In this document: positions 3,040 through 34,147 of the stretch, piece by piece | How positions within the stretch are numbered: position 1 is the first letter of the stretch | How the letters are laid out: each line of letters starts with the position of its first letter | Virus record (IMG/VR): IMGVR_UViG_3300032323_002377 | Location: 1 to 36,291 of that record | From: a virus | Direction: 5' to 3' (one strand) | DNA: 36,291 bases | Position numbers and translations under genes: made by a program | Notes under the pieces: model-generated | Databases searched by the model: none | Told to the model about the DNA's origin: nothing | What the model saw: only the letters and a program-made list of their open reading frames with translations

Positions 3040-3047
3040 TATAAATA
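3040..3047 (-). promoter_or_regulatory. TATTTATA element upstream of gene 13
   Basis: Exact TATTTATA in coding sense (plus strand TATAAATA), 13 nt before the start codon, in the short gap after the fibre gene's stop. It is one of ten such sites; see findings for possible roles. Confidence 0.5.
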
Positions 3048-9421: not shown

Positions 9422-9429
9422 TATAAATA
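9422..9429 (-). promoter_or_regulatory. TATTTATA element upstream of spike paralogue 2
   Basis: Exact TATTTATA in coding sense, 14 nt before the ATG, in the 31-nt gap between the two spike genes. Confidence 0.5.
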
Positions 9430-17588: not shown

Positions 17589-17596
17589 TATAAATA
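17589..17596 (-). promoter_or_regulatory. TATTTATA element upstream of the 960-aa gene
   Basis: Exact TATTTATA in coding sense, 6 nt before the ATG and one base after the preceding gene's TAA. Confidence 0.5.
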
Positions 17597-18486: not shown

Positions 18487-18494
18487 TATAAATA
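18487..18494 (-). promoter_or_regulatory. TATTTATA element upstream of the Ig-like gene
   Basis: Exact TATTTATA in coding sense, 17 nt before the ATG, in the 47-nt gap after phoH. Confidence 0.5.
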
Positions 18495-18516: not shown

Positions 18517-19206
18517 TTAATCTCTGTAGGTAGAGAATACTTTCAATATAGGTTCTACGATTTCATGTCTATGATTTTTTTCTAATGTAATTACTTTTAC
18601 TCTTGGTACTTCAATTTCTATTTTTAAAAAGAAATCAAAACCAGAATCTTTTTTATTTTTTAAATCACATTGAGACATATCACCACAAAATATCATTTTA
18701 GAATTTCTACCTAAACGACCAATCATCAATTCTGTTTGTTTCATTGATGCATTTTGTGCCTCATCAATTAAAACATAACAATTTGAGAATGTATTACCAC
18801 GTAAAAATCCAAAAGGAGCTACTAAAACCTGTCCTTCATTAACTAATTTTTCAGATTTTTCCTTACCTACTAATTCATGCATTATATTATAGATAGGGGC
18901 AGTTAAATAAGCTAATTTATCATCAACTCCTCCTGGTAAGTGTCCAATATCTTCACCAGCTGTTACATAAGGACGAGCAATTATAATTTTTTCTATTTCT
19001 CTTTTAAACAATTGATCTAAAGCTACTTGTAAGGCAGTTGCTGTTTTACCAGATCCTGCTTTACCTTTTAAAGCTATAATATCATGATTTAAAATGTCTT
19101 CTTTAGCTCTTTTTTGTTCTTCATTTAGAGTAATTCCGAATTTGATTGGGTTTTTTGGTATTCTTTTATTTTTAAATACCTCATCCTCGAAATGGTTTGA
19201 TGCCAT
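18517..19206 (-). CDS. phoH: PhoH-like P-loop ATPase
   Basis: 229 residues covering the PhoH core. Walker A is GKAGSGKT (48-55), preceded by the typical N-E-E-Q-K-x-A motif. The PhoH hallmark ARPYVTAGEDIGHLPG lies at 77-92, and Walker B is YVLIDEAQN (144-152), followed by a GRLGRNSKMIFCGD sensor-like segment. PhoH family members are cytoplasmic nucleotide hydrolases, linked to phosphate starvation in bacteria and common as auxiliary genes in marine phages; their substrate there (often suggested to be RNA) is unsettled. The gene follows the phosphatidylserine decarboxylase gene by 7 nt and is likely co-transcribed with it. No obvious pho box was seen. Confidence 0.92.
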   Translation of the reverse strand: MASNHFEDEVFKNKRIPKNPIKFGITLNEEQKRAKEDILNHDIIALKGKAGSGKTATALQVALDQLFKREIEKIIIARPYVTAGEDIGHLPGGVDDKLAYLTAPIYNIMHELVGKEKSEKLVNEGQVLVAPFGFLRGNTFSNCYVLIDEAQNASMKQTELMIGRLGRNSKMIFCGDMSQCDLKNKKDSGFDFFLKIEIEVPRVKVITLEKNHRHEIVEPILKVFSTYRD

Positions 19207-19213
19207 ATATTTT

Positions 19214-19933
19214 TTATTTAAAGTTGATTTTTACTAATTTGTCTAATCCTGCATTAACATGCATAGCGTCTTCAAGGCAAAGTTCAAAATCGAATCTATC
19301 ATCCAAAGGAAGTACTAGATCGACTTGACTTCCCCATCGTATCAAAGAAAATCTCTCATTTTGAGCAAAAATATCATTTTGTGAATTAGTGAAAGGAGCA
19401 ATTACATTTACATCCTCATCAGCAATTTGAACAAGATAATATTTGTAATTTAATGATGGAACATAAATCTGATTCCACATTCTTTCATTATATTTTAAAT
19501 ATTCCATATTAGCAGGATTAATCTTTTTATTTAAGATATCCTTTTCTACAGCCAACATTGGTTTATTTGTTGATTGTATTGCCTCTAGTGGTTTATATTT
19601 AAGTATACCTCCATAAGGTATGCGATTTATATGAACATCGTAGAACGACATGAATATACCAATGACTAATGAGGGGGTATTATATTCATCATCGCCTACG
19701 ACATCTTGTAATGTATAATTTAATCCTTTAATCTCAACTATAGATTCAGTAGGATCTTCAATAAACTTTTGATATAAAATAGTACCATCAGCTGGTGAAT
19801 AAAAATGCTCATGGTCTATAAAATTTGGTCTAATAGGGTCTCTAAAGAAAAATGTATTAGATAAATCACCTACAGGCATTTTTTGAAGTTGTTTAACTTC
19901 AGTACTTAACCATTCTTGTAATGTTTGTGCCAT
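19214..19933 (-). CDS. psd: Phosphatidylserine decarboxylase (pyruvoyl enzyme)
   Basis: Family members convert phosphatidylserine to phosphatidylethanolamine and make their own pyruvoyl cofactor by self-cleavage at a serine. The expected triad is visible: YSPADGTI with Asp49, FYDVHINRIPYGG with His101, and WGSQVDL with Ser202. The G-S pair and the following V-D-L-x-L-P fit family members whose cleavage motif is G-S rather than L-G-S-T. The substrate-site motif IKGLNYTLQDVVGD precedes them. The length (239 aa) is near that of short soluble family members, and I saw no membrane segment. The start overlaps the stop of the upstream enzyme gene by one base. A lipid-synthesis gene inside a phage capsid/tail cluster is unusual. 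The family call is strong; activity is inferred from intact residues. Confidence 0.88.
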   Translation of the reverse strand: MAQTLQEWLSTEVKQLQKMPVGDLSNTFFFRDPIRPNFIDHEHFYSPADGTILYQKFIEDPTESIVEIKGLNYTLQDVVGDDEYNTPSLVIGIFMSFYDVHINRIPYGGILKYKPLEAIQSTNKPMLAVEKDILNKKINPANMEYLKYNERMWNQIYVPSLNYKYYLVQIADEDVNVIAPFTNSQNDIFAQNERFSLIRWGSQVDLVLPLDDRFDFELCLEDAMHVNAGLDKLVKINFK

Positions 19934-20847
19934 TATAGTAAAGTTCTATTATGATCAACTCTATTTAAATGCATTACCATACAAGATAACATAGCACCTG
20001 ATTTCATGTATTCTGATAAATTGAAAATAACAGGTTCCATACCAGCATCAGAACAAATTTTTTCTAATGTTTTAAGTTTATGTACTTCACCTTCATAATA
20101 TTCATGTGATTTTTTTAATTCAGAAATATTAGAGGCACATAAAATCATGTTACCATATCTAACTGAATTAGTTAATCCACATAAAGCATCATCAACATTA
20201 ATATCGATAATTTCTGTTTCTTTTTCTATTAACGCGAGTTCCTCAGGATCAAATAACTCCGTGCATATTAATGTTTGTTCTTGATTTAACGCGAATATAG
20301 AACAGTCTAGATGATATAAATATTCATCTACCATAGCAACTTTAATAATATCCATGTTATATTGTTCTTCCATCCACTCATAAGTTTTAATGTTAGAACG
20401 AATACCATAACCACCAATATATTTGTTACCATAAAGATATTTCAAATCAGCTTCACCTTCCCATTTGTATGGGGAGATTGAAGTTTTATAACCCATTTGT
20501 TGAAAGAATTTTTCACCTACTAATTCTTCACCCTTACGAGGGTCAGAAGAAAAATTAGATAAAATAATGTGATTTTCGTTTTTAATATGGGGTAATTGAA
20601 TACCTAAGTTAGCTACATAAACCTGGTCTTGAAAATTACCTTCAGAAGGTAATAAATAAACTAAAGATCCACCAGCCATAAACTGATATAAATCCATAAA
20701 TTGTTTATAAGCTTTTGGTCTATTAACTGATAATTCCTCATCTGTTAGTTCCTGCATCCATATATTATTTGGGTCAGAAGTTGATAAGGTAAATGGAAAG
20801 TTCATTACATAACTTTGAATAGGTAACTGACTTGGGGTTTCTTTCAT
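19933..20847 (-). CDS. Arginine deiminase / amidinotransferase-fold enzyme (DDAH-like)
   Basis: 304 residues with the pentein (guanidino-group-modifying) signature. The N-terminal FQDQVYVANLGI with Asp74 corresponds to the family's P-D-x-V-F-x-x-N. WEGEADLKYLYGNKYIGGYG (129-148) corresponds to E-G-G-D and the G-R-x-x-x-G segment. Catalytic His179 lies in YLYHLDC, and the nucleophile Cys289 in MLSCMVMHLNR near the C-terminus. Known members act on arginine, methylated arginine, agmatine or glycine-arginine pairs; sequence alone does not tell which. It is the first gene after the capsid-gene terminator, has a TATTTATA element, and is coupled by TAATG to psd. The fold is confident, the substrate unknown. 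Confidence 0.8.
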   Translation of the reverse strand: MKETPSQLPIQSYVMNFPFTLSTSDPNNIWMQELTDEELSVNRPKAYKQFMDLYQFMAGGSLVYLLPSEGNFQDQVYVANLGIQLPHIKNENHIILSNFSSDPRKGEELVGEKFFQQMGYKTSISPYKWEGEADLKYLYGNKYIGGYGIRSNIKTYEWMEEQYNMDIIKVAMVDEYLYHLDCSIFALNQEQTLICTELFDPEELALIEKETEIIDINVDDALCGLTNSVRYGNMILCASNISELKKSHEYYEGEVHKLKTLEKICSDAGMEPVIFNLSEYMKSGAMLSCMVMHLNRVDHNRTLL

Positions 20848-20873: not shown

Positions 20874-20881
20874 TATAAATA
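20874..20881 (-). promoter_or_regulatory. TATTTATA element upstream of the amidinotransferase-fold gene
   Basis: Exact TATTTATA in coding sense, 26 nt before the ATG and about 24 nt downstream of the capsid-gene terminator. This placement fits a fresh transcript for the enzyme cassette. Confidence 0.5.
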
Positions 20882-20905
20882 TATAGTAGGTACTTAGAAA
20901 TAAAG

Positions 20906-20929
20906 AGGGCCTAGAAAACTCTAGGCCCT
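20906..20929 (-). terminator. Intrinsic terminator after the major capsid gene
   Basis: A perfect 10-bp stem (AGGGCCTAGA / TCTAGGCCCT) with a 4-nt loop, followed in the coding direction by the T-rich CTTTATTT. It is the strongest GC stem in this AT-rich neighbourhood and lies 33 nt after the capsid stop codon. A-rich sequence on the other side may let it work in both directions. Confidence 0.8.
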
Positions 20930-20961
20930 TCTTTACTTGACTATATCCTTTCTATTTTAGA

Positions 20962-22626
20962 TTAGATAGTGTTCAAACCATGAACATAAATCTTACCGTA
21001 GAATTCAGGACGTAACATCTTCTTAGCGTAACGAGTCAATAAACCTTTACGTGGAGTGAAGGTATCAGGATCGTACACTAGAGGAGTCATAATCATTGGA
21101 ATATAAGGAGCAAATACAGCACCAGTTTCCAAGAATTGGCTACCTTTGTAACCTAACAAGATTACGTTTTCAGTCATGTAAGGGTTCTTGTAAACCTTGT
21201 AACGACCGTTTACGCTACCTACTTTCTGTACTCCGAAAGCATATTCCATTTGTTCAGCTTCACCGTTTGAAGTAGAAGCGAATCCAGGGATAGATTCTAA
21301 GATAGTAGCAACTGTAGGAGAAGTTACCATAAAGTTAGCACCTCCACGAAGAGTTAACTGGTGGATTTTGTTGCTTAACTTTTGGATCTTAGTTCCTAAA
21401 GTTTGGAACCACTGACCTTGAGTATTGTAGAAACCAGAAGCTAAAGTTGAAGGAGCAGCAGCACCAGGAGCAATCACGGTGTTGTTTACAGCTGACCAAT
21501 ATTCAGTACCAGCAGCAGCATCTTCAATTAACATGTCTAAGATTTCAAGATCAATTTCCATTGAAATATACTCACTCATGATGTTAGTTAATTCAGCTTC
21601 AGCATCGATGTTTTGGTAAGCAGCTAAGTCTTGAGCGAACTCAGGAGTCCATACAGCTTTCAATTTACGAGTTTTAGCAGTGATAGCTTGAGACTGCATT
21701 TTAACGTTGATCTCAGGGATAACGATAGTAGAAGCAGACTGAGCGTTTGGTACAGCGTAAGAAGAAGAATCTTCAAAATCACCTCTGTACTGATCAGAAG
21801 TTAACTTAGTGTAAGTTACAGTTGAGTTAGCAGAAGTTGCAGTACCGTTAGTTTCAGCAGTAGAAGCAGTAAAGAAGAAAGCAATAGTATTACCAGTGTA
21901 GTTGTAAGTAGTAAACTGAGGGAACAATTTAGCTACAGTAGCAGCTGAACCTGAAGTTAAAGTAAATCCTCTTGTAGAATCTGCATCAAAGAAAGGTAAT
22001 AAAGTAGTAGCAGTAGCAACTGTGAATTTCTTAATTGTACCAGCAGCGATAGAAGCTGATAAATCAGAATCAAAGTTTACTTCAGCCCAAGAAGCAGTAG
22101 CTACAGCAGCTGATACTACAGAAGAAGTAGTGTTAATAGAGTAAGTGAATTTGTTTGCAGGGTTGTATAAACCACCAGAAGCAGCAGGAGTAGCAAATGG
22201 GAATTGACCGCTTGGGTTTCTATCACCATATAAAGATCCACCTGTTCCAAAAGGAGTCTTAGTATTACCATATTGGAAATCTAAGAAGAATACAAGACCT
22301 GAAGGCATGTTCATAGGCTGAACTGAAACGAATTCTTTCGCTACGATAGTTCCGAATACCTTACGAACCAAAGGTAAAGCGATACCAGCCCAGTTTTCAC
22401 CTTGGGTACCGTTAGTGAAGTAAGAGTTAGTAGAGATAACGTTGTTTTCTGTTACTAACTGTTTAGCTTGGTTTTCTAACAAGATTGACATGTTATTCTT
22501 TTCAACCTCGCCCAAGCCCTCTAGTAAGCCTGTTTTAGTCCATTTGTTGGCTAATTTGGCTGCGTCGCTTTGCAAGCTCTTCCAAGATCCTGCAGCGCTT
22601 TCTAATAATTGTTGTACTTGTGACAT
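20962..22626 (-). CDS. 23: Major capsid protein (T4 gp23-like)
   Basis: Forms the hexameric shell lattice of the head. It aligns by eye with T4 gp23 along its length: NKWTKTGLLEGLGE (T4 NKWKPLLEGEGLPE), VQPMNMPSGLVF (T4 VQPMNSPTGQVF), then AQDLAAYQNIDAEAELTNIM (T4 AQDLRAVHGMDADAELSGIL), GRYKVYKNPY, LTRYAKK and a final KIYVHG. At 554 residues it is near T4 size (521). Cleavage by the prohead protease is expected near residue 60 (LVTE/N), the position matching T4's E65 site. The leader is A-rich with no Shine-Dalgarno. Codon choice differs from the neighbours (more AAG, TAC, TTC, AAC, CGT), as expected for very high expression. A terminator follows. Confidence 0.95.
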   Translation of the reverse strand: MSQVQQLLESAAGSWKSLQSDAAKLANKWTKTGLLEGLGEVEKNNMSILLENQAKQLVTENNVISTNSYFTNGTQGENWAGIALPLVRKVFGTIVAKEFVSVQPMNMPSGLVFFLDFQYGNTKTPFGTGGSLYGDRNPSGQFPFATPAASGGLYNPANKFTYSINTTSSVVSAAVATASWAEVNFDSDLSASIAAGTIKKFTVATATTLLPFFDADSTRGFTLTSGSAATVAKLFPQFTTYNYTGNTIAFFFTASTAETNGTATSANSTVTYTKLTSDQYRGDFEDSSSYAVPNAQSASTIVIPEINVKMQSQAITAKTRKLKAVWTPEFAQDLAAYQNIDAEAELTNIMSEYISMEIDLEILDMLIEDAAAGTEYWSAVNNTVIAPGAAAPSTLASGFYNTQGQWFQTLGTKIQKLSNKIHQLTLRGGANFMVTSPTVATILESIPGFASTSNGEAEQMEYAFGVQKVGSVNGRYKVYKNPYMTENVILLGYKGSQFLETGAVFAPYIPMIMTPLVYDPDTFTPRKGLLTRYAKKMLRPEFYGKIYVHGLNTI

Positions 22627-23885: not shown

Positions 23886-24488
23886 TTAAAATATTGGGCA
23901 GGTACCTTGCGAACAAAGTATTTCTGTAATAACAGAATTTACTCTTGAGTAATCTGTAGTTGGTTTTTCTAATCCTTCTTTAACCAATGTCATATATGAA
24001 CCTGGATTAGATGGGGTGCTTACAAAGTCCCAGCATAGTAATTCGAAATCATCTTGTACTTCTAATGTTTCACCAATTTGTTTTAATGAACCCATTCCAC
24101 GAGATGATACACCTACCATAACATTATTATCAATAAGTGCTTTTAAGATATTACCAGATACAGTAGGTAAAATTTCTAATTTACCCATTACTTTATCTCC
24201 GTCCCACCAAATTTCTCTAATAATATGAGATACGTTTTTTAAAGATATAATAGAGGATTCAGGGTGATCTAATTCACCTGTTGCTCTATTTTCTTTAACC
24301 ATTTGTTGATATTTATCAATTTCTCTTTCCCACAACTCTTTAGGATAATAACGGCCATTACCATTTTTTACCTCGGCTGTAGCTAAAATACCTTCAACTA
24401 AAGGATTACCTGATGGTGCTTTTAAACCCTCATGTAACTGTGTACGAGATACTGAAAATGGTATGGTTTCAATTAATACTTGTTTCAT
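23886..24488 (-). CDS. 21: Prohead core protease (T4 gp21-like, S77 family)
   Basis: Serine protease that assembles inside the prohead and cleaves capsid, scaffold and internal proteins after L/I-x-E. Recognisable features are GNGRYYPKELWEREI near residues 43-57, His75 in ATGELDHPESS, and Ser128/Ser129 in MVGVSSRGMGSL, matching T4 His85 and Ser140. DFVSTPSNPGSY near 154-165 is the usual D-x-V-x-x-P-x-x-P segment. At 200 residues it is close to T4 gp21 (212). Possible self-cleavage sites are QLHE/G (residue 20) and LVE/G (32). It is separated by one base from the upstream capsid-module gene and followed by a terminator. Confidence 0.93.
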   Translation of the reverse strand: MKQVLIETIPFSVSRTQLHEGLKAPSGNPLVEGILATAEVKNGNGRYYPKELWEREIDKYQQMVKENRATGELDHPESSIISLKNVSHIIREIWWDGDKVMGKLEILPTVSGNILKALIDNNVMVGVSSRGMGSLKQIGETLEVQDDFELLCWDFVSTPSNPGSYMTLVKEGLEKPTTDYSRVNSVITEILCSQGTCPIF

Positions 24489-25333: not shown

Positions 25334-25341
25334 TATAAATA
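25334..25341 (-). promoter_or_regulatory. TATTTATA element between the 88-aa and 279-aa genes
   Basis: Exact TATTTATA in coding sense, directly after the preceding TAA and 4 nt before the next ATG. That is too close for a normal leader, so it bears on what the element does. Confidence 0.45.
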
Positions 25342-27322: not shown

Positions 27323-27330
27323 TATAAATA
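27323..27330 (-). promoter_or_regulatory. TATTTATA element between portal and following gene
   Basis: Exact TATTTATA in coding sense, 14 nt before the ATG, in the 33-nt gap after the portal stop codon. Confidence 0.5.
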
Positions 27331-27341
27331 TATAAAGATTT

Positions 27342-29222
27342 TTATTCCTTTAAATTAGATTCATCTAATAATGATTCACCACCACTTTTCTTATTAAAGA
27401 TATTTACTTTTTGGAGTGATTCAATTAATGTTTTATTTTTTGCTTTAATTTCTAAAGCTAAAGGAGAAACATCTTTAACGGGTCTACCATATCCTTCTTG
27501 ATCGTCATTTTTCATTGCATCTCTACCTAATCTATCTTTACCAAAGGCATTATCTTGAGTATTAATATTAGATACTCTTTCTTTAGGACGACCCAAAGGT
27601 GACTTTTCATCATATCCATCAGGTACTGAGTTATCTTGGTATCTGCCTCTTCCATATAACGAAGCTAGATCATGAGGTGTACCATAAGATTTACCTGTTT
27701 CTAAAGGATCGTTTCCTTCTTCACCTATTTGATTATATCTGAAGGCACGTTTTTGGTCTTGAGCAATTAAATCTCTCATTTCCTCGTATTGGTCTTGGCT
27801 GAAATGGAATATATTTTCATAAATCCAATCTGATGAAATTAATTTAGTTTCCATCATTTGAGCAGCTAAGTCCATTTTTTCTTTCATTAATGCTACTCTT
27901 TCCTGATCATAAATAATTGAAGGTGTAGTTAATGATAATTCAAAATTAGTTAAATTTTCTGCTGTATAACCTTGAGTATATAAATGTACTAAAGCTATTT
28001 TATATAATTCTGATAGTATAATACGTTGAATTCTATCAATTGTACGAGCGAATCTAATATCTTCGGCAGCTAATGTTGCTTTACCTTGTAAATTTTCATC
28101 ATAACCCATAAATGCTTTAGGAACTCTTAAAGCAGCAAATAATTTGTCTCTTAAGTAAGTAACGTCTTCAATTGCAGTATAATTTAAACCTTGTAAATTT
28201 TCAATTTTGGTACTTTGATCATTTCCTCTAATAGGAATGTAAAAGTCCTCCATTAAATTCTGCATATTATATTTTTGATTATATTGACCTGTTTTTTCAT
28301 CCATTAATGGAGTACGTTTCATAGACGTAATTGTCTTTTGCATGAAACTTTCTACTTCATTTGGAGGAATAGAACCAACATTAATATAAAATATACGTCT
28401 ATCTGGTGAGCGGGAAATTCTATGAATTAACATAGCATCTTCCATCAATGCATATTGTTTGTATAATCTACGAGCAGGTTCAATATATGCTCTTCCATAA
28501 GGTAGATAGTTAACATCTGTCATTAAACGGAAATGTGCTATTTCATAGTTATCAAACATTACTCTATTTTGATCTCTTAAATTAGTAGCAACATCAGGAA
28601 CAGGATAATATCCAGAACTACCCCCATAAACACCTTCAGGTGAATATAAAAATCTTACAGCATTTGGTCTTTCCTTATCATAATTTTCTTGTCTTTCAAT
28701 ATGATAAGCGGTAATCGGAATTACATTGTAAACACCAAATTTTTCAGCAATTTCTAACTTTAAGAAAAAATCACCATACTTACACATTTGACGAATCCAA
28801 GACCATAAATTAAATTCAACGTTTAATACATCATAAAATAAATTATAAAGTACTTGTTGAATATCCTCGTCATTAGATCTAATCTGTAAAACCTCACCCA
28901 TTTCATTTCTTAATGTAGCTTCTTCAGCTATAATATCAAGAGCAGAAGCAATAATGGCATCGTTATCCATTACATCATAATCCGAGTATATAAATGTTCT
29001 TAAATATTGATAGTTAATGTTAACTTGTTGACCATATAAAGATGATGCCGCTGGTGAATAGATTCTATTGTATCTATCCATTAATGAATTTGTAGCTACA
29101 TCACCTGATCTTTGTATGCTATCAACGTCCAATACTTTTAATTGGTTTCCTCCTTGATTTCGAATGATTACATCAGTGGAAAACAATCGTTGTAGACGAG
29201 TAAATAAACTAGTATCTGCCAT
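27342..29222 (-). CDS. 20: Portal protein (T4 gp20-like)
   Basis: Forms the dodecameric DNA channel at the head vertex and docks the terminase. The family pattern is visible in FIYSDYDVMDNDAIIASALD (residues ~77-96), DIIAEEATLRNE, and FNLWSWIRQMCKYGDFFLKL. Further on come YMEDAMLIHRISRSPDRRIFY-like residues near 252-275 and LAAEDIRFARTIDRIQR. It is longer than T4 gp20 (626 versus 524). The extra length is mostly a polar C-terminal tail rich in Gly, Asp and Arg that ends LLDESNLKE, which contains an L-x-E/S. It follows the terminase by 18 nt, with a TATTTATA element in the gap. Confidence 0.93.
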   Translation of the reverse strand: MADTSLFTRLQRLFSTDVIIRNQGGNQLKVLDVDSIQRSGDVATNSLMDRYNRIYSPAASSLYGQQVNINYQYLRTFIYSDYDVMDNDAIIASALDIIAEEATLRNEMGEVLQIRSNDEDIQQVLYNLFYDVLNVEFNLWSWIRQMCKYGDFFLKLEIAEKFGVYNVIPITAYHIERQENYDKERPNAVRFLYSPEGVYGGSSGYYPVPDVATNLRDQNRVMFDNYEIAHFRLMTDVNYLPYGRAYIEPARRLYKQYALMEDAMLIHRISRSPDRRIFYINVGSIPPNEVESFMQKTITSMKRTPLMDEKTGQYNQKYNMQNLMEDFYIPIRGNDQSTKIENLQGLNYTAIEDVTYLRDKLFAALRVPKAFMGYDENLQGKATLAAEDIRFARTIDRIQRIILSELYKIALVHLYTQGYTAENLTNFELSLTTPSIIYDQERVALMKEKMDLAAQMMETKLISSDWIYENIFHFSQDQYEEMRDLIAQDQKRAFRYNQIGEEGNDPLETGKSYGTPHDLASLYGRGRYQDNSVPDGYDEKSPLGRPKERVSNINTQDNAFGKDRLGRDAMKNDDQEGYGRPVKDVSPLALEIKAKNKTLIESLQKVNIFNKKSGGESLLDESNLKE

Positions 29223-29232
29223 AGAAATATAT

Positions 29233-29240
29233 TATAAATA
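29233..29240 (-). promoter_or_regulatory. TATTTATA element between terminase and portal
   Basis: Exact TATTTATA in coding sense, immediately after the terminase TAA and 10 nt before the portal ATG. Confidence 0.5.
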
Positions 29241-30818
29241 TTATAAAAGCCAACTAATGTCTTCATTTCCATTACCTGTGTTAACAGAATAAGGATTAGG
29301 AACACTATTTCCTCTGTATGCTCCTGAAAAAGATGTGTTTCCTTTTGAGAAATTACTTAGGGTTGCTCTTGTTAAATCGTGAGATTGTTGTTGAAACTTT
29401 AATGATGTATCTCTTAAATACATTGCAATACCAAAAGGCATTACCAAGTCATCATTATAACCTGTTTGTGCTTCTGGTCTACCATTTTTCCATACAAAAA
29501 CTTTCATTTCTTCTAACAATCTTTTTGAACGAATAGTTACTGATCTATCACCAATATATTCTCTAAATTTATTAACAATTAGAGGACGAGTTCTTAGTGA
29601 AATTGTAAAACCAGGAGTAACATTATCACTATTTTCGTACTTGTGAAAATACGAATCAACTGTTAAATTATCACTCTTAGGTGAATAATAAGTATTTCTA
29701 TATCCTCTTTCTAAAACAGATTCAATAGCTGCCCAACCAATAGAAGCATTTTCTACTACTAATAATGCTTGGTTATATTCAGTAGCAACACCTACTAAAA
29801 AGTATCCAAACTCTTTAGGAGGCATTTGCCCTTTGTACTCTGCAACTTGTGTATTAGTTGCAATATCAATTACATGAAAAGTTGAGAAATCCTTACCATC
29901 ACCTCTAGCTACGTCTGCTACTACCATATAATCTCTTGTATAGTCTGCAGGTTCCCATACCCATAAATTTTGGTCGGCTCCTCTTCTTTCAATAGGTTCT
30001 TGAATTGTAGTTTCTTTAATAAAGTCTATCCATTCATTATAAAATACCACATCTCCTGATGTGCTAAAATCACAATCACATTCTTGTGCTGCTAATCTTG
30101 GATCACCTAATAATTCATCTTGACGTTTTCTCCATGACTCATCTCGTTCAGGATGTACATACCAAGGTAATTTAATAGGTAAAAAGTCATTATCTGCTGA
30201 CTCTGCTGCTACCCAAGTTTTATGAAACCAGTTACCAGTACCATAAGGAGTTGATAATACAATTGCACCACCACCAGTTGCTAATGTTTGTTGAGCAGAA
30301 GCCCAAATCTCACCTATTTGTTCAATGAATGCTGCCTCATCGACTATCAACAAAGATACGGCTTCTGAACGACCTGCATCACTTGATGCTGATGTTGCTT
30401 TAATTTGTGAACCGTTACTTAATCTTAATGTTAATTTGTTATGTTCTTCTGCTTGTATTTTTAACCATGAAGGTAAATTATCAAACATAAACTTAACTTT
30501 AGTTACCATGTTTTTAGCTGTTTCTTGCTTTGTAGCAATACAAAGTACGTTTTTGTCTTTATGAAACAGCATTAGCCATAAAGAATAACCAGCAGCTAAT
30601 GTTGATATACCTAACTGACGGGATTTTAATACAATTGAATAGGGATGGTCTTTCCAAAGATTTAATACTTTATCCTGGAAAGGATATAAATTGAATATTA
30701 CTCGACCTCTTTGTGGATGCTGAATATTACAATATTTTTTCATAAAGTGAGCAGGATCTTGCAAACACTTTATGTATTCTTGTTTAATGACTTCTTTTAT
30801 GTTTATAGGTTCACTCAT
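29241..30818 (-). CDS. 17: Terminase large subunit (T4 gp17-like)
   Basis: DNA-packaging motor with ATPase and headful nuclease. Walker A is SRQLGIST (66-73), Walker B LLIVDEAAF (156-164), and the coupling motif STPYGTGN (189-196). The RNase H-like nuclease residues are visible as Asp302 in VVADVARGDGKDFS, Glu356 in LLVVENASIG, and Asp456/457 in YNDDLVMPFG. The 525-residue length fits the family minus the T4 N-terminal extension. The ATG overlaps the stop of the upstream spanin-like gene (ATGA). No small terminase (gene 16) is recognisable next to it in the window. The polar C-terminal ~50 residues probably contact the portal. Confidence 0.95.
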   Translation of the reverse strand: MSEPINIKEVIKQEYIKCLQDPAHFMKKYCNIQHPQRGRVIFNLYPFQDKVLNLWKDHPYSIVLKSRQLGISTLAAGYSLWLMLFHKDKNVLCIATKQETAKNMVTKVKFMFDNLPSWLKIQAEEHNKLTLRLSNGSQIKATSASSDAGRSEAVSLLIVDEAAFIEQIGEIWASAQQTLATGGGAIVLSTPYGTGNWFHKTWVAAESADNDFLPIKLPWYVHPERDESWRKRQDELLGDPRLAAQECDCDFSTSGDVVFYNEWIDFIKETTIQEPIERRGADQNLWVWEPADYTRDYMVVADVARGDGKDFSTFHVIDIATNTQVAEYKGQMPPKEFGYFLVGVATEYNQALLVVENASIGWAAIESVLERGYRNTYYSPKSDNLTVDSYFHKYENSDNVTPGFTISLRTRPLIVNKFREYIGDRSVTIRSKRLLEEMKVFVWKNGRPEAQTGYNDDLVMPFGIAMYLRDTSLKFQQQSHDLTRATLSNFSKGNTSFSGAYRGNSVPNPYSVNTGNGNEDISWLL

Positions 30819-31923: not shown

Positions 31924-31931
31924 TATAAATA
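31924..31931 (-). promoter_or_regulatory. TATTTATA element before the 143-aa gene
   Basis: Exact TATTTATA in coding sense filling most of the 11-nt gap between a TAA and the next ATG, with only 3 nt to the start codon. This is the shortest spacing of the ten sites. Confidence 0.45.
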
Positions 31932-32743: not shown

Positions 32744-34123
32744 TTATCTGAAATGGATCATATCACCATGAATATTATCCCATTCACATTCTTCAATTAA
32801 ATGTTCAACAGACAATATACCTTGTGCTCCTGAAACTGTAATACCACGTGCTGACAAAGCATCTCCTACAAAATGTACATTAGAAAATTTAGTTAAACTA
32901 AGATCTTTATAATTTACAAGTGGTTCAGGTGAAAGATATTTTACTTCAGGAATATACATACCCCAATCATCTCCAAGTGTTGGGAATACTTTTTTCATAT
33001 CCTCAATAAAATCTAAAATATAATAAGCATATTCACCAAATGCATCTTTAAATAATTGTAAAGCAAATAATTCTTGAGCTACTATTGGTGCTCCTTCAGA
33101 AGTAAAAGATGGATGTCTTTTTGTTTTTGGTGAGTAATATAAACCAGATATCGATTTACCATTACCAGCTTGATCTTTCCACTGACACATTTCAACAACA
33201 TTACGTGACCACTCAAATGGATTTTCAATACCATTAATTTCCATTAAGATACCAAAATTAGTCATATCATTTTTATATTTTGGATCTTTTTTAGCATGAC
33301 CATTGTAACTATGATCTCCATATGTTTCTTCTACAGCAACATAAGCAGCATTATTATTTGTACAGAATGAACGTAGTGAAACACCTTTATCTTCAAATTT
33401 ACGATATAATTTAAAGTCGTAACTAATATCAATTAGTTTTTGGAAATGTTTTTGTGGTGCTTCAAATCTAACTCCAATTTGAACTGATTTAGGTTCATCT
33501 GGGAGATTATATTTGTTGGCTAATTCTTGTGCAAAATCAATACCTGATTTACCTACACCAAAGATAAGTTCATCATATGAAATTCCTTTACCAACGGCTG
33601 TAATGGGGTCATGATAAAGAACCAAATTAATTTCAGTATTAATATCATGAACCTTATTTTCCCAAATAAAATTAACACCTTTAGATACTAAATAATCATA
33701 CCAATTTTTAGCAATTTCAGATAGATAATCTGTACCTACGTGCCATACTGGGAACAAACGTAAACCGAAATATGGTTTAATAAATTCAGGTTCCTCAACA
33801 GGATTTGAACATTGTACTTCTTCTGGTTTTGGATGGAAACGTTTAAAGTTAGTAATAACTTCATCCATTAAAGCCATTGCTTTTTTTTCACCAACATATT
33901 TAGATAGCTGACCTCCGATTGCTGTATGGTAAGTTAATTTACCATCAGACCAACCTCCAGCACCTAAAAAACCTGTCATTACTTCTTCAGGTTTTCTGTT
34001 GTAAGGGTCTTTACCCATATCAATAATGGTAATGTTTTCTCCAGGATAACCATTGTCTACTAATTTAGTAGCAGCATTTACACCTGCTACACCTGCTCCT
34101 ACAATTACGATTTTCTTTGTCAT
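32744..34123 (-). CDS. FAD-dependent oxidoreductase (COG2509-like)
   Basis: 459 residues. The N-terminal Rossmann motif is IVIVGAGVAGVNAA (5-18). GFLGAGGWSDGKL (51-63) matches the G-x-G-G-A-G-x-x-S-D-G-K-L motif of uncharacterised FAD dehydrogenases of the COG2509 type. ELIFGVGKSGIDFA is the second dinucleotide-related strand, and VHFVGDALSARGITVSGAQG near the C-terminus is the usual FAD-closing segment. No membrane or Cys-pair redox motif is obvious. It is the first gene after a strong terminator, and a TATTTATA element overlaps that terminator's T tract, suggesting separate expression. The substrate is unknown. A redox enzyme of this type is unexpected in a phage head region. Confidence 0.8.
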   Translation of the reverse strand: MTKKIVIVGAGVAGVNAATKLVDNGYPGENITIIDMGKDPYNRKPEEVMTGFLGAGGWSDGKLTYHTAIGGQLSKYVGEKKAMALMDEVITNFKRFHPKPEEVQCSNPVEEPEFIKPYFGLRLFPVWHVGTDYLSEIAKNWYDYLVSKGVNFIWENKVHDINTEINLVLYHDPITAVGKGISYDELIFGVGKSGIDFAQELANKYNLPDEPKSVQIGVRFEAPQKHFQKLIDISYDFKLYRKFEDKGVSLRSFCTNNNAAYVAVEETYGDHSYNGHAKKDPKYKNDMTNFGILMEINGIENPFEWSRNVVEMCQWKDQAGNGKSISGLYYSPKTKRHPSFTSEGAPIVAQELFALQLFKDAFGEYAYYILDFIEDMKKVFPTLGDDWGMYIPEVKYLSPEPLVNYKDLSLTKFSNVHFVGDALSARGITVSGAQGILSVEHLIEECEWDNIHGDMIHFR

Positions 34124-34139
34124 ATGTTTAACACGTTAA

Positions 34140-34147
34140 TATAAATA
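34140..34147 (-). promoter_or_regulatory. TATTTATA element before the FAD oxidoreductase gene
   Basis: Exact TATTTATA in coding sense, 16 nt before the ATG. Its first base is the last T of the upstream terminator's T tract, so termination and restart signals are fused. Confidence 0.5.

Follow-up and report, generated by a model that had tools for sequence, protein, structure and literature searches.

Short bacterial phosphatidylserine decarboxylases (PSDs; PF02666; PRK05305, TIGR00164) have in common with the phage protein examined here the overall fold, the PADG, DVHxNR and GS motifs, and the self-cleavage site. The same overall fold (Z about 10) occurs in the arginine decarboxylase of Aspergillus oryzae (9jer, 9jf5) and in PsiD (8x4q, 8zia), both solved as amino-acid, not phospholipid, decarboxylases; thus, amino-acid decarboxylases with a PSD fold exist. 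These latter enzymes differ from the phage protein in being eukaryotic, longer, and without a known gene partner. Arginine dihydrolases of the ArgZ/AgrE type convert arginine to ornithine, two ammonia and CO2, and the cyanobacterial ArgZ and AgrE are the closest solved structures, by both sequence and fold, to the product of the gene that accompanies the phage decarboxylase. The known phage examples of pyruvoyl-dependent ornithine and arginine decarboxylases derive from AdoMetDC (PMC9992855, PMC10407285); these resemble the present protein as phage-borne pyruvoyl decarboxylases proposed for cationic amino acids, but they belong to another family, and the present one comes with an arginine-dihydrolase-like gene of its own. 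Literature searches turned up no paper describing a phage PSD that has an arginine-dihydrolase-like partner.

The decarboxylase gene and its neighbourhood

The window (the whole stretch of DNA analysed, a virus record of 36,291 bases) has nearly all of its longer genes on the minus strand, in the order terminase, portal, protease, gp23-type capsid, dihydrolase-like gene, decarboxylase, PhoH and tail genes. The decarboxylase gene (19214–19933, minus strand) is an uninterrupted reading frame for 239 aa, which is real and almost certainly specifies a functional protein. PF02666 (PS_Dcarbxylase) is its sole Pfam match (residues 27–229, E 8.2e-25, 88 bits against a cut-off of 22), with no homology to AdoMet_dc, and the protein falls within PHROG 12670, a family of “unknown function” (E 1e-44). 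The AF2 model has a mean pLDDT of 89.9 and a pTM of 0.90. The original prediction of a complete gene with Asp49, His101 and Gly201-Ser202 intact was borne out, and the minus strand, which it had not given, is added here. The codons for Asp49 of the PADG motif (19787–19789), His101 of YDVHINR (19631–19633) and Gly201-Ser202 of RWGSQVDL (19328–19333), all on the minus strand, specify residues that are invariant across 51 aligned relatives from phages and bacteria; the loss of Ser or His in relatives, which had been named as a refuting observation, was not seen there for H101 or S202. The Campylobacter and Bacteroides phage copies likewise keep D49, H101, G201 and S202, and the Bacteroides phage copies have Ser-Gln at Asp99-Val100. 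Because the catalytic residues are intact an active pyruvoyl-dependent decarboxylase is likely, and the proenzyme would probably cleave itself at the predicted site, Gly201-Ser202, to form the pyruvoyl group. The earlier view of a probably active enzyme thus stands as to decarboxylase activity; phosphatidylserine as the substrate is not supported.

Profile matches agreed with the predicted placement of the gene in a structural cluster, and identified TerL (29241–30818), portal (27342–29222), protease (23886–24488), the gp23-type major capsid protein (20962–22626; Pfam Gp23, E 7e-76) and a PhoH-like ATPase (18517–19206; Pfam PhoH, E 3e-56), all on the minus strand, the last lying 7 nt downstream of the decarboxylase. 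The gene had been described as next to the capsid gene; the dihydrolase-like gene (19933–20847) lies between the two, and a bidirectional terminator-like hairpin (20905–20930) separates the capsid gene from the pair. Upstream of the packaging genes, the minus strand of 32744–34123 encodes a 459-aa protein with the start of a nucleotide-binding oxidoreductase (Pyr_redox_2, E 1e-7; PHROG dehydrogenase).

The promoter-like motif TATTTATA (20874–20881, minus strand) is found 27 nt ahead of the start codon of the dihydrolase-like gene. There are 11 coding-strand copies in the window, 10 of which are intergenic and stand in short gaps before genes, 4–27 nt from the start codons (minus strand: 3040–3047, 9422–9429, 17589–17596, 18487–18494, 20874–20881, 25334–25341, 27323–27330, 29233–29240, 31924–31931 and 34140–34147); gaps of at least 12 nt hold 9 copies, compared with 0.2 expected from shuffles. 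The motif precedes head and tail genes as well as the dihydrolase-like / decarboxylase pair, and looks like the phage's own late promoter. Since the copy before the pair recurs in the gaps before other genes, the pair is probably transcribed together with the late genes, which makes the late expression presumed originally plausible. The exact motif ahead of the partner gene is kept in just 26 of 73 related loci. TATTTATA is the reverse complement of the T4 late promoter core, and some transcripts arising from it would be nearly leaderless. The T4 late promoter TATAAATA was rejected as a candidate, its single match on the coding strand being intragenic.

Comparison with canonical PSDs and PSD-fold enzymes

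The alignment comprised 53 members of the family and seven short canonical PSDs. The catalytic positions agree between the two groups; the family differs in having Asp172 in place of Gly, Asp174 in place of Val or Ile (Asp172-Glu-Asp174 codons, 19412–19420, minus strand), Gln203 in place of the Arg that follows the cleaved Ser (i.e., GSQ, not GSR), and His225 where the short PSDs have Arg or Lys. These changes, close to the catalytic motifs, remove positive charge and add negative charge, and a cationic amino acid would fit them better than a phosphate ester would. Short PSDs have an N-terminal membrane segment that the family lacks, the maximum KD19 value over the first 40 residues being 0.43 in 51 members compared with 1.2–2.2 in short PSDs. 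The best score against an NCBIfam PSD equivalog was 74.5 bits, where the cut-off is 183, and the protein fell far below the cut-off of every NCBIfam PSD model. In the tree the family formed a clade apart from the canonical PSDs sampled (support 91/90), with several joins on long branches and an unsure deep order. A tree had been suggested as the check for a recent host acquisition; recent capture of a host PSD was rejected because the family forms its own clade, albeit with long branches at the joins.

A Foldseek search with the decarboxylase model gave clear matches to E. coli PSD and to the tryptophan decarboxylase PsiD. With VIA-align, the model matched E. coli PSD with Z 12.6, the Aspergillus oryzae arginine decarboxylase with Z 10.2 (9jer) and, for the structure with arginine bound, Z 10.1 (9jf5), and PsiD with Z 10.2 (8x4q). 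E. coli PSD was the sole PDB sequence match (E 9e-7), and neither the Aspergillus enzyme nor PsiD showed a sequence match to the phage decarboxylase at E values up to 10. A PS synthase gene lies beside two of the canonical PSD genes that were fetched; the partner of the phage gene is arginine-dihydrolase-like.

The dihydrolase-like partner in viruses and bacteria

The partner gene (19933–20847, minus strand) encodes a 304-aa guanidino-group-modifying enzyme (GME) of the arginine dihydrolase (ArgZ/AgrE) type, as judged by NCBIfam, PDB sequence and Foldseek comparisons, and its stop codon overlaps the decarboxylase ATG by one base (TAATG). It matches the NCBIfam arginine dihydrolase with E 2e-21 (76 bits, under the cut-off of 450), and its PDB sequence relatives are ArgZ and AgrE only (profile E 4e-27). 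In a Foldseek search with the partner model (pLDDT 91.2), ArgZ (E 1.7e-21, TMq 0.80) and AgrE (E 1.9e-21) were far ahead of DDAH and the amidinotransferases. Residues N80, E130, H179 and C289 are invariant or near-invariant in the partner's family alignment, so that the Asn, the Glu/His motif residues and the Cys of ArgZ/AgrE are kept. Asn80 (VANLG; codon 20608–20610, minus strand) aligns with ArgZ Asn71 (FTANAG), the residue mutated in structure 6juz (N71S). Cys289 (codon 19981–19983, minus strand) is the predicted nucleophile, equated with ArgZ Cys264 by motif position, as the alignment ends before Cys289. Two further residues, R104 and R150, are invariant or near-invariant, and would occupy positions that hold the alpha-carboxylate in related enzymes. 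Unlike ArgZ/AgrE, the partner is a stand-alone domain lacking the ornithine cyclodeaminase domain.

Phage copies of the decarboxylase had been thought rare; 45 phage records in GenBank contain one, as do no fewer than 186 IMG/VR stretches. With the decarboxylase as query, 80 IMG/VR loci were retrieved; the dihydrolase-like gene lies just upstream in 77, the other 3 contigs ending first, and where the contig was long enough the order was usually capsid, dihydrolase-like gene, decarboxylase, PhoH. Conversely, the dihydrolase-like alignment as query retrieved 80 loci, and the decarboxylase was present in all of these, at identical spacing (mostly 3 nt) in 72; the two sets of 80 loci share contigs. 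When 50,697 phage records were searched by tblastn, 45 matched the decarboxylase and 47 the partner, and all 45 were among the 47. The 45 records comprise Campylobacter phages, with tens of kb between the two genes of a genome, and Bacteroides DAC/SJC phages, with the two genes side by side. The distance matrices of the decarboxylase and partner families agree (r 0.95; bacteria only, r 0.81). The Flavobacterium immuto phages, which are the nearest capsid relatives, gave no GME or PSD match by tblastn, and other genes fill their capsid–PhoH interval; absence of the pair from these phages indicates that it is cargo between the capsid and PhoH genes.

Two Campylobacter phage records (PV052266 and PV052264; loci L087, L088 and L089) have the genes of the pair and their neighbours broken into several small CDS, and a taxonomy line (Rountreeviridae) that misfits a T4-like genome. 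These oddities possibly represent sequencing errors and a wrong label. One Campylobacter phage record is annotated as similar to an entry in AF210249, presumably the bleomycin cluster.

Scanning bacterial and archaeal genomes gave 35 loci, of which 34 look cellular (44–58% identity over the best segment); the remaining one, L091, is a phage contig within a Flavobacteriales MAG and was set apart. The cellular loci come from Verrucomicrobiota, Actinomycetota, Latescibacterota, Gammaproteobacteria, a Sulfurimonas MAG and others. The dihydrolase-like gene directly follows the decarboxylase in 32 of the 34; one of the two unpaired loci (L124) is cut by a contig end, and the other (L094) has no partner nearby. 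In 28 of the 34 an exporter gene adjoins the pair or lies close to it (MATE in 24, ABC in 4), the MATE gene of L105 being at a distance of about 1.5 kb. This group of decarboxylase, dihydrolase-like and MATE or ABC exporter genes, seen in several phyla (L093, L096, L098, L101, L109 and others), is apparently undescribed. The Verrucomicrobiales loci tested have a PotD/PotF-type spermidine/putrescine-binding protein close by (E 1e-49 to 1e-56), and an ornithine cyclodeaminase-like gene lies near the pair in Saccharothrix tamanrassetensis (L151). Streptoalloteichus hindustanus holds two PSD-like copies in one genome (L103, L150).

At least one further PSD, with a far better Pfam score, is present outside the pair in 22 of 27 carrier genomes, and a second PSD was not seen in the other 5, mostly incomplete MAGs. 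Given the second, better-scoring PSD, the paired protein is a paralogue whose job is most likely a different one. Among 19 bacterial carriers, speA scored over the cut-off in 6 and nspC in 4, from which the pair as a simple substitute for arginine decarboxylase in bacteria was rejected as a general rule. Other polyamine genes are often present in bacterial carriers, so that in cells the exported product may have a different use.

Possible products of the pair

Constant pairing with an enzyme of an arginine-degrading type, in viruses and in bacteria, makes it more likely that the two enzymes produce an arginine-derived cation. We suggest that the decarboxylase would be a soluble pyruvoyl-dependent amino-acid decarboxylase with a PSD fold. 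The partner would break arginine down to ornithine with release of ammonia and CO2, and the ornithine would then be decarboxylated to putrescine by the PSD-like enzyme, this being the simplest route that uses both enzymes; the order may be reversed, via agmatine. Expressed late with the head and tail genes, the pair would enlarge the cationic amine pool of the infected cell, the most plausible use for which would be neutralisation of DNA charge while heads fill. A function other than synthesis of phosphatidylethanolamine (PE) is very likely, and the product is probably an arginine-derived cationic amine. For putrescine itself as that product we see roughly an even chance, and DNA packaging as its purpose is offered tentatively. 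The best explanation as a whole, a two-enzyme late module that converts arginine to putrescine or to another arginine-derived cation, has in our estimate an evenly balanced chance of being correct.

A genuine PSD, acting on host phosphatidylserine to form PE late in infection, is improbable. The PS_Dcarbxylase match (E 8e-25), the D, H and GS motifs held in common with short PSDs, and E. coli PSD as the closest solved structure (Z 12.6) are what this reading would lead one to see, but the constant partner is arginine-dihydrolase-like, whereas a PS synthase gene adjoins two of the fetched canonical PSDs. The separate canonical PSD owned by 22 of 27 bacterial carriers, the scores far under every NCBIfam PSD cut-off, the absent membrane segment, and Asp172, Asp174 and Gln203, which are special to the family, also speak against it. 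With this partner, the separate PSD in most carriers, the missing segment and the changed charges, the change in host membrane by PE synthesis that the original prediction proposed is not supported. It is unlikely that the decarboxylase acts first, converting arginine to agmatine, with the GME partner then forming putrescine from agmatine: the partner is nearest to the arginine dihydrolases and keeps R104 and R150, our presumed carboxylate-holding positions, whereas agmatine has no alpha-carboxylate. A PSD-fold arginine decarboxylase has nonetheless been solved with arginine bound (9jf5, Z 10.1), and agmatine deiminases are included in the list of GME enzymes (PMC11659421). The pair could also make some other small cationic product, e.g., by amidino transfer, which bacteria would export and phages would use otherwise. 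Exporters of differing families adjoin the bacterial pairs, the L151 pair has its ornithine cyclodeaminase-like neighbour, and the polyamine amidinotransferase HsvA is among the weaker fold matches of the partner; we nevertheless consider this product rather unlikely, as ArgZ/AgrE are far better matches than the amidinotransferases (E 2e-21 vs 6e-11) and the dihydrolase Asn is kept.

Several observations were counted against the arginine-to-putrescine (or related cation) module. E. coli PSD is both the best structural and the sole PDB sequence match, so that PSD activity is still conceivable; speA or nspC in several bacterial carriers indicates that the pair is not a plain replacement of the usual polyamine route; and the bacterial exporters fit any cationic metabolite. 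Large phage records holding the pair had no AdoMetDC (13 records) and no spermidine synthase or arginase (15 records), by which a larger polyamine pathway in these phages was rejected. The L094 locus without a partner, the 5 of 27 genomes without a second PSD, and the Ser-Gln of the Bacteroides phage copies were weighed likewise.

Two other roles were considered and rejected. Phage phiW-14 has a route for DNA hypermodification through ornithinyl-thymine; thymidylate-synthase-type enzymes turned up in just 5 of 15 records, both complete reference genomes lacking them, and bacteria share the pair. Participation in a known anti-phage defence was rejected, as neither protein had a PADLOC match.

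In its fullest form our proposal is a tentative one: that these PSD-annotated phage and bacterial enzymes may be ornithine (or arginine) decarboxylases working with the dihydrolase in an undescribed two-step route from arginine to putrescine, to which bacteria would add export, and of which the Bacteroidota and Campylobacter phages would retain just the enzyme pair, encoded within or close to the late block, as a supply for DNA packaging. Phage polyamine enzymes are already known from a different fold, and what is new here is the PSD-fold version with a dihydrolase partner. If the proposal is true, the PSD annotation on dozens of Campylobacter phage records misleads, the phage polyamine toolbox gains a further protein fold, and a bacterial gene group in several phyla gains a testable function. 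It would also allow a clean test of whether DNA packing depends on polyamines that the phages make themselves.
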